A stretch of DNA of 51,591 bases, from NCBI GenBank assembly GCA_013215375.1, contig JABSRB010000038.1, forward strand, positions 1-51,591, written 5' to 3'. Below the pieces are notes generated by a model, which saw only the letters and a program-made list of their open reading frames with translations, did no database searches and was not told the DNA's origin. Position numbers and translations under genes: made by a program. Shown here one piece after another: positions 1-36,567 of this stretch. Origin of the DNA: Oceanospirillaceae bacterium. GTDB taxonomy: Bacteria > Pseudomonadota > Gammaproteobacteria > Pseudomonadales > Balneatricaceae. Each line of letters begins with the position of its first letter. Position 1 is the first letter of the stretch.

Positions 1-52
1 GCTCACAGCTCACAGCTCACAGCTCACAGCTCACAGCTCACAGCTCACAGCT
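1..52. repeat. 7-bp tandem repeat (GCTCACA)n, open at the left edge
   Basis: About 7.4 head-to-tail copies of the heptamer GCTCACA run from the first base of the window. The true length is unknown because the array is cut by the window edge. It ends 83 bases before the ATG at 136. A 7-base unit shifts the reading frame with each copy, so it would be a frameshifting contingency repeat if it lies in a gene to the left. A second heptamer array with a different unit occurs at 34081. Confidence 0.9.
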
Positions 53-33500: not shown

Positions 33501-34042
33501 AGAAATACTGGCACTCAGCAGCTTGTAACAGTAACAATCCCTGTTGTTTGTGTTTAAGGCTAGTTCTGACTCTAAAGTGGGAGTTTAGCTATCCTTGTAA
33601 TAAAAAATTTATGCTGTTGCGGCCAGTAATCATGCCACATTAATAGCTTTTATTAGAGTGGGGCATAGCACATCGTCCTTAGGTTGCCATCCGCTGCCTT
33701 TAGCAATAGGACTAATGGTATTTCAAATAGCTTAGGTCGCAAGTTTGCTCGCGAATAGATCTAAGAGCTGCGTACGTTTTAGTAATAAAAATTCTTGATT
33801 TTATGTTTTTAAAAACAATCTATAGTATGATTTACTGAATGTGAATAAATTTTAGAGGTTTGTTTTTACTTAATATTTTTCGTTGCATTGCATCGATTTC
33901 TCTCATTTATAATGTTTAATTATGAGCTTTTTGTAGGTATGGGAATCTTTTCTACTTCCTTAGTAAAGGATAAATATTTTCCTCATAGCTTTGTCATAGA
34001 TTAGCGTCTAAGCTTGAAGTTATTGTAGTTTGAGGAGGCAGG
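33501..34042. other. Gene-free spacer upstream of the repeat-bearing binding-protein gene
   Basis: About 540 bases. It is AT-rich from 33780 with long T runs. No open frame with a ribosome-binding site is seen. GAGGAGG (34032-34038) is the ribosome-binding site for ATG 34043. Confidence 0.55.
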
Positions 34043-34789
34043 ATGCCTAGATATTACTTAAGCGGTTTTTTCATAATGTTAGTCAGTAGTCAGTAGTCAG
34101 TAGTCAGTAGTCAATTGGCTCTTGCGGACCCTAAGGTTCATAAAGTGACGCTGGCTACGCATAATTTGTGTCCCTATGGATGTTATCAAGCTAATGGTTC
34201 AAGCGTTAGCAAGTCTAAGTTACGTTTTTCAGGAGTGGCAGTTGATGTGGTTCACTGTTCTTTGAAAAAAATGTCGATTCAGTTAGAAATATCAGTACTA
34301 CCTTGGAAAAGAGCAGAAAAGGCGGCGAGCGAAGCAGTAGTTGATGGTTTTTTTGCCGCTTCCCAAAACTCTGTACGCGATGACTTTGCGACCATGTCAG
34401 CGGTTATAGCTGAACAAAAATGGCAATGGTTTTTATTGAGTGATAGCCCGTTAGATCCTTTGCAATTATCCTTTAAACATAATGCAACAGTGTCAGGGTT
34501 TAGAGGTTCCAATATGTTATTTTGGCTCAAAAAAAATAACTATCAAGTCGCGGCCACAGCGATAGATACCCAAGGCCTACTCAAACTTTTATTAAGAGGG
34601 CGGGTCGATGCGGTACTTGCCAATAATTATGTGATGAAAGAGGTTATCACGGATCAACATTTGCTCGACAAAATTAAAGTTTATACCCTTAAAAATAAAC
34701 CTTTAGGCGTTTATTTTGGTAAATCATTTCTCTCTCAATATCCCTCCTTCTTAAAAGAATTCAACGCTAATGTTAGCAAATGTCGTTAA
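34043..34789 (+). CDS. Periplasmic solute-binding protein, interrupted in the signal peptide by a heptamer repeat
   Basis: ATG 34043 has a strong GAGGAGG site and begins a signal peptide (MPRYYLSGFFIMLVSSQ), but a TAG stop at 34094-34096, inside the 7-bp repeat, ends it. The same frame then resumes (LALADPKVHKVTLATHNLCP) and stays open to 34789, giving a family-3-like extracellular binding protein of about 220 residues. With 1.7 instead of 4.7 repeat copies the frame runs straight through and gives a normal signal peptide ending ALA-DP. A downstream TTG at 34115 could give a short cytoplasmic form but has no ribosome-binding site. It is either a phase-OFF state or a recent pseudogene. No transport permease is nearby. 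Confidence 0.75.
34081..34113. repeat. 7-bp tandem repeat (AGTCAGT)4.7
   Basis: Four perfect copies plus AGTCA, inside the signal-peptide codons of the binding-protein gene. Three tandem units (21 bases) restore frame but place a TAG in every reading phase, so arrays of three or more full copies always block translation. Confidence 0.95.
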
Positions 34790-36509: not shown

Positions 36510-36530
36510 CAATTCATCGTTTATACTTTC

Positions 36531-36567
<37 letters not shown>

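Follow-up and report, generated by a model that had tools for sequence, protein, structure and literature searches.

The array and the interrupted reading frame

The window, by which we mean the whole stretch of DNA analysed (51,591 nucleotides, all of contig C32), comes from a marine bacterium that is kin of microbes living with bone-eating worms. Its forward strand carries a gene for a predicted binding protein, whose signal-peptide region is interrupted by a heptanucleotide array. The features are as follows.

34032..34038, forward strand: ribosome-binding site GAGGAGG ahead of the ATG at 34043, read directly
34043..34117, forward strand: start codon with the interrupted signal-peptide region, which contains the array, from the translation and the N-terminus of the orthologue L115
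34080..34113, forward strand: perfect heptanucleotide array, TAGTCAG x4.86, from Tandem Repeats Finder, with 21 bases missing in the orthologue of the genome G004
34094..34096, forward strand: in-frame TAG at codon 18, supplied by the array, from the translation
34115..34789, forward strand: remaining gene with the periplasmic-binding-protein domain, from the ORF, Pfam, the structure model and Foldseek
1..52, no strand given: GCTCACA x7.4, the other heptanucleotide array of the window, located at the contig end

The initial annotation had proposed that the ATG at 34043 is preceded by a ribosome-binding site and that 4.7 copies of AGTCAGT introduce a TAG. Both proposals were borne out. Tandem Repeats Finder assigned the array a period of 7, 4.9 copies and 100% matches; counted as AGTCAGT, it spans 33 bp and 4.7 copies. 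It starts 37 bases past the A of the start codon and is located in the 5' coding region, which, along with the promoter, is where a simple-sequence contingency (phase-variable) locus has its array. The frame from the ATG runs for 17 codons to the TAG and, behind the array, the same frame continues to 34789. In the sequence as assembled, the gene is off. Removal of three units opens the frame over 241 residues, with the N-terminus MPRYYLSGFFIMLVSSQLALADP, of which the signal peptide and the cleavage site were judged by eye and from relatives. The state of 1.7 copies (1.86 when counted as TAGTCAG), predicted earlier to restore the frame, is indeed open, and its length matches that of an intact relative. 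When the window was shuffled 100 times with its dinucleotides preserved, no period-7 array had three copies or more (maximum 2.43), compared to two such arrays in the real sequence. The second of these, (GCTCACA)7.4, begins the contig 84 bp before a 477-aa ORF, and the same unit is seen 89 bp before a 454-aa ORF elsewhere (L052:11155-11185). The window also holds the tetranucleotide array TCTA x9.8 at 36529-36567; a second binding-protein gene lies on one side of it, and on the other a minus-strand ORF of 369 aa, with its 3' end toward the array.

The product had been annotated as a binding protein for sensing or uptake, and its fold agrees with a binding protein. The match to Pfam SBP_bac_3 is 23.2 bits, below the gathering score of 26.4, a point of difference from the amino-acid-binding proteins named below. 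The best of five structure models of the domain, built on an alignment of 7 sequences, had a mean pLDDT of 87.1 (63-72 for the other four). Foldseek matched it to amino-acid-binding proteins; the 50 matches listed all have a probability of 1.00, and their query TM-scores range from 0.56 to 0.72 (for example 6q3u, E 2.3e-14). The sequence profile agrees with this fold (GlnPQ, 6h30, E 3.6e-13). A predicted periplasmic-binding-protein fold of the amino-acid type is thus supported, with one confident model of the five. The fold is common to the amino-acid-binding proteins of ABC uptake systems, such as T. maritima ArgBP and the binding domains of GlnPQ. Reading of the ORFs gave no transporter gene adjoining the binding-protein gene.

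Orthologues without the array

Whole-genome searches gave good orthologues in three of the six other genomes of the genus, with identities of 78% (G004), 60% (G006) and 54-56% in two pieces (G005); the best matches in G001, G002 and G003 were at 25-30% identity. All three orthologues, each from another species of the genus, are without the array. The G004 orthologue (L115) is intact, has 242 aa, and starts with MRSQVLSGFYVMLICSQLANAD, an N-terminus similar to that of the window gene, with GAGGAG at the place matching the ribosome-binding site. In the signal-peptide region, the sole gap between the two genes is of exactly 21 bases, at the array. The N-termini of the G004 and G006 orthologues are signal-peptide-like by eye, and their window counterpart is broken by the TAG. 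Because the G004 copy is intact and lacks exactly these 21 bases, the three extra units are likely to be the derived state, and with the array missing from all three orthologues, a gain of three units in the lineage of the window is the simplest history. The seed from which the array would have grown is itself an inference, because the G004 sequence departs from it at three bases.

A comparison of the window gene with that of G004 across 224 codons gave a dN of 0.12 and a dS of 0.52 (NG86; 0.13 and 0.48 by YN00), which argues that the protein has been under constraint. The orthologue of the Osedax symbiont Rs2 contains a frameshift at an A-run (L117:2336-2361), which is either real or a sequencing error and for this reason was not counted as evidence of decay. 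We considered a 10-bp tandem duplication as the lesion in this orthologue and rejected it, since a +1 frameshift at the A-run is the better reading of the sequence. The symbionts Rs1 and Rs2 are assigned to Nitrincolaceae, genus Rs1, in an excerpt of PMC10199937. None of seven neighbouring genes of the window was found beside the orthologue in the short stretches from the relatives (6.2, 10.6 and 6.3 kb), except that the second binding protein gave one weak cross-match, to the orthologue. No relative of the gene was confirmed in IMG/VR.

Period-7 arrays in the genome and its relatives

We sampled 851,591 bases of this genome (G000), made up of the window plus 40 stretches of 20 kb each, and counted perfect arrays of at least three copies at periods of 4 to 21. 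Period 7 accounted for 27 arrays, compared to four at period 4, three at period 6 and one each at periods 8, 9 and 18; the remaining periods in this range had none. The genome thus has the excess of period 7 over other periods that is a trait of heptanucleotide-rich genomes. The G006 sample of 400,000 bases, one of whose 20 stretches was picked for a known array, held 36 period-7 arrays, five of period 4 and at most two of any other period. One period-7 array was found in 73 kb of G001, and none in the samples of G002, G003, G004 and G005 (45, 27, 69 and 68 kb), which indicates that array density varies within the genus. Farther afield, 15 other genomes of the family had no period-7 array in 244 kb, five genomes of other families had one in 97 kb, and G008, a genome in a single contig, had seven along with four period-6 arrays in 400 kb. 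A search for AGT at every seventh base, five times over, gave between 27 and 1049 overlapping matches per genome in all seven members of the genus and also matched 27 of the 109 other genomes in the family, with the proviso that the TGANNNN control pattern was not a clean negative (143 control matches in G000, compared to 161 for the AGT pattern). The control pattern was frequent in genus g3 (G008, G023, G079 and kin), so that genus, too, has arrays of period 7, built from other units.

For the analysis of placement, arrays less than 150 bp apart were merged, which gave 51 sites in G000 and G006; 12 of these, near sample edges, were not placed. The 39 placed sites comprise three in ORFs (all in G006), 17 in convergent gaps, 14 in tandem gaps and five in divergent gaps, on crude ORF calls and with a few sites sharing one gap. 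The window array was counted among the tandem-gap sites because it breaks its own ORF. Convergent gaps hold 17 of the 36 intergenic sites, compared to a 16.5% share of intergenic bases (p = 1.7e-5). ORFs have only three of the 39 sites, even though coding sequence makes up most of the bases; the arrays of these two genomes are mainly intergenic, which is another trait of heptanucleotide-rich genomes. This placement fits arrays that survive where harm is least, and not arrays set at gene starts.

With regard to turnover, the loci in the relatives that match three array-bearing loci of this genome (L052, L036 and L045) were without arrays of the same unit in the stretches compared (L138-L161), some of which cover the gap in part. 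At the L036 locus, G006 has TCGCTAC x13 and G002 has TCACGCC x9, and the compared stretches of G001, G003, G004 and G005 have no array of at least three copies. Certain units recur at unrelated places: TAGTCAG x11 is present in G006, and the L036 unit is found at several places in G004. A 600-bp cluster in G006 (L072:11181-11776) contains six arrays of different heptamers, some of them touching; its first unit, AAGACTC, is by chance that of neuO.

Six of the 13 unit classes of G000 contain AGT/ACT (p 0.04, with 21% expected), as do 11 of the 16 classes of G006 (p 6e-5) and one of the five of G008 (p 0.70); for AGC/GCT, the counts are four of 13 (p 0.21), one of 16 and none of five, respectively; the classes in these counts are not independent. 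A common unit motif, YRGYY, was set aside as post hoc. A dispersed, partly palindromic intergenic element, CTCCGTGTTCTCTGTGCCCTCTGTGGTG...CACCGAGGGCACAGAGGCGCTTCGCTACACGGAG, is found at L182:10215-10388 and at ten other places in the G000 sample. Eight of these 11 copies in 852 kb have a period-7 array within 200 bp, and 11 of the 27 period-7 arrays of G000 lie within 200 bp of the element. The sampled stretches of G006, G008, G001, G004, G005 and 15 other genomes hold no copy, and since the G006 sample has 36 arrays, the element is not needed for arrays. In whole genomes, a stretch related to it gave more than 100 matches in G003 and some in G004. Neither the window nor L182 matched a known RNA family at the gathering threshold.

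Origin of the interruption and comparison with known systems

Our preferred reading, which we regard as probable, is that a heptamer expansion disabled a binding-protein gene that is not universal in the genus, and that this is reversible only by chance. A lineage-wide tendency to expand 7-bp units would have produced the window array. A short seed of about 1.7 units (AGTCAGTAGTCA), placed at the end of the signal-peptide region, would have gained three units, probably through replication slippage and perhaps recently. Such a gain would amount to 21 bases, in frame yet carrying the TAG, at which translation begun at the proper start stops once 17 codons have been read. The binding protein of the assembled genotype would not be exported and probably not be made. 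The loss was likely tolerated, since the gene is not in all species of the genus and shares no neighbours in the contigs of relatives that were compared. Because arrays shrink as well as grow, ON cells could reappear by chance. The window array needs no special purpose in this account, given how many arrays of period 7 this genome has, most of them intergenic. Some observations pull against the account. The mature domain is intact and constrained relative to G004, as a switch would likewise need; array density varies within the genus; and identical units are found again at loci unrelated to one another, for which slippage from random seeds is not a sufficient explanation.

The array had been interpreted at the outset as a contingency or decay switch. 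In a true contingency locus, heptamer slippage would switch binding-protein export between on and off, reversibly and under selection. The position of the array at the 5' end of the gene, the open 1.86-copy state and the preserved domain are all in keeping with this idea, and excerpts describe heptamer arrays that switch genes elsewhere, as in neuO (PMC13001214) and the Haemophilus hmw genes (PMC2651432). Against it, a phase-variable locus should return repeatedly to an ON state and should retain its array among related species. We read the frame for zero to nine full units plus the partial unit. One unit gave the only open frame of the ten; zero units led to a stop at codon 26, and each number from two to nine to a stop at codon 18, at the same TAG. 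Further gains of units would keep the gene off, and a return to ON needs the exact loss of three units, a layout with a single ON length that does not appear to have been built as a switch. With the array also missing from the three orthologues, and with the arrays of this genome abundant and mostly intergenic, we consider a contingency locus unlikely; the decay half of the earlier interpretation, as an accidental knock-out that chance could undo, fits better. Equally doubtful to us is a broader proposal, by which an active process in this Osedax-symbiont genus would build 7-bp repeats from preferred seeds containing AGT or AGC, in this genome often beside the dispersed palindromic element. 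It would turn genes such as the window binding protein off, and occasionally on, and so create unselected on/off variation in free-living or host-associated marine bacteria.

It is also conceivable that the gene is still expressed, through read-through of the TAG or from a later start, and that the array may act in the control of translation. With 4.86 copies, the codons that follow the TAG are in the correct frame, so that read-through would yield an exportable protein with seven extra residues, and TAACTGA heptamers near starts have been proposed as control sites in a Beggiatoaceae genome (excerpt of PMC4679880). The later start, however, would be the TTG at 34115, a formal start only, with neither a preceding Shine-Dalgarno-like sequence nor a signal peptide; the array is placed after the start rather than before it, and the G004 gene manages without one. 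We judge continued expression to be quite improbable. A misassembled copy number, by collapse or expansion in the assembler, is more improbable still. Arrays do disturb this assembly, since its contigs often end in them: a period-7 array lies no more than 200 bp from five of the 42 contig ends (about 0.2 expected) and from two of 20 further contig starts. But the 34 bp of the window array are far below the usual length of a short read, the array is internal to its contig, and arrays of this period are also present in the single-contig genome G008.

Heptamer-rich genomes are already known, and this genus, with the Osedax symbiont Rs2, adds a member. An excess of period 7 in bacteria is described in excerpts of PMC4692102, PMC4679880 and PMC6344855. 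Mrazek 2007, as cited in excerpts of the first two, reported heptanucleotide long simple sequence repeats, with GGGAATC in Xanthomonas and GGGGA(T/C)T in Nostoc. None of the literature matches listed deals with heptamer repeats of Nitrincolaceae or of Osedax symbionts. What leads bacteria to over-produce repeats of exactly seven bases is still an open question, and one paper, in the text excerpted, finds no clear clue to their function (PMC6344855). The genus offers related species that have or lack a given array, what seems to be one and the same gap occupied by different units, and an in-gene array with an array-free relative, and for these reasons makes the birth and turnover of arrays directly accessible to study.

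As in this genome, period 7 stands out in the genomes with long simple sequence repeats and the arrays are mostly intergenic (excerpts of PMC4692102 and PMC6344855); unlike those repeat-rich genomes as excerpted, this one has many different units, often with AGT or AGC, and one array in a gene. Most arrays of Xanthomonas lie between the same genes in two species (excerpt of PMC4692102), whereas the three loci compared here have no array of the same unit in the relatives. The TAACTGA repeats of Beggiatoaceae and cyanobacteria (excerpt of PMC4679880) resemble the present arrays in that they form many intergenic heptamer arrays, with forward units that contain stop codons. That system has one unit, mostly just upstream of start codons, in contrast to the several units seen here, the preference for convergent gaps and the position of the window array behind the start codon. 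A parallel to the window gene itself is neuO of the E. coli K1 phage CUS-3 (excerpt of PMC13001214), in which a heptamer array in the 5' coding region likewise sets the frame through its number of units. In neuO, the full-length product (ON) is made at repeat numbers divisible by three, and 3 to 53 repeats were counted in 64 genomes, whereas the window gene is ON at one of ten unit numbers.
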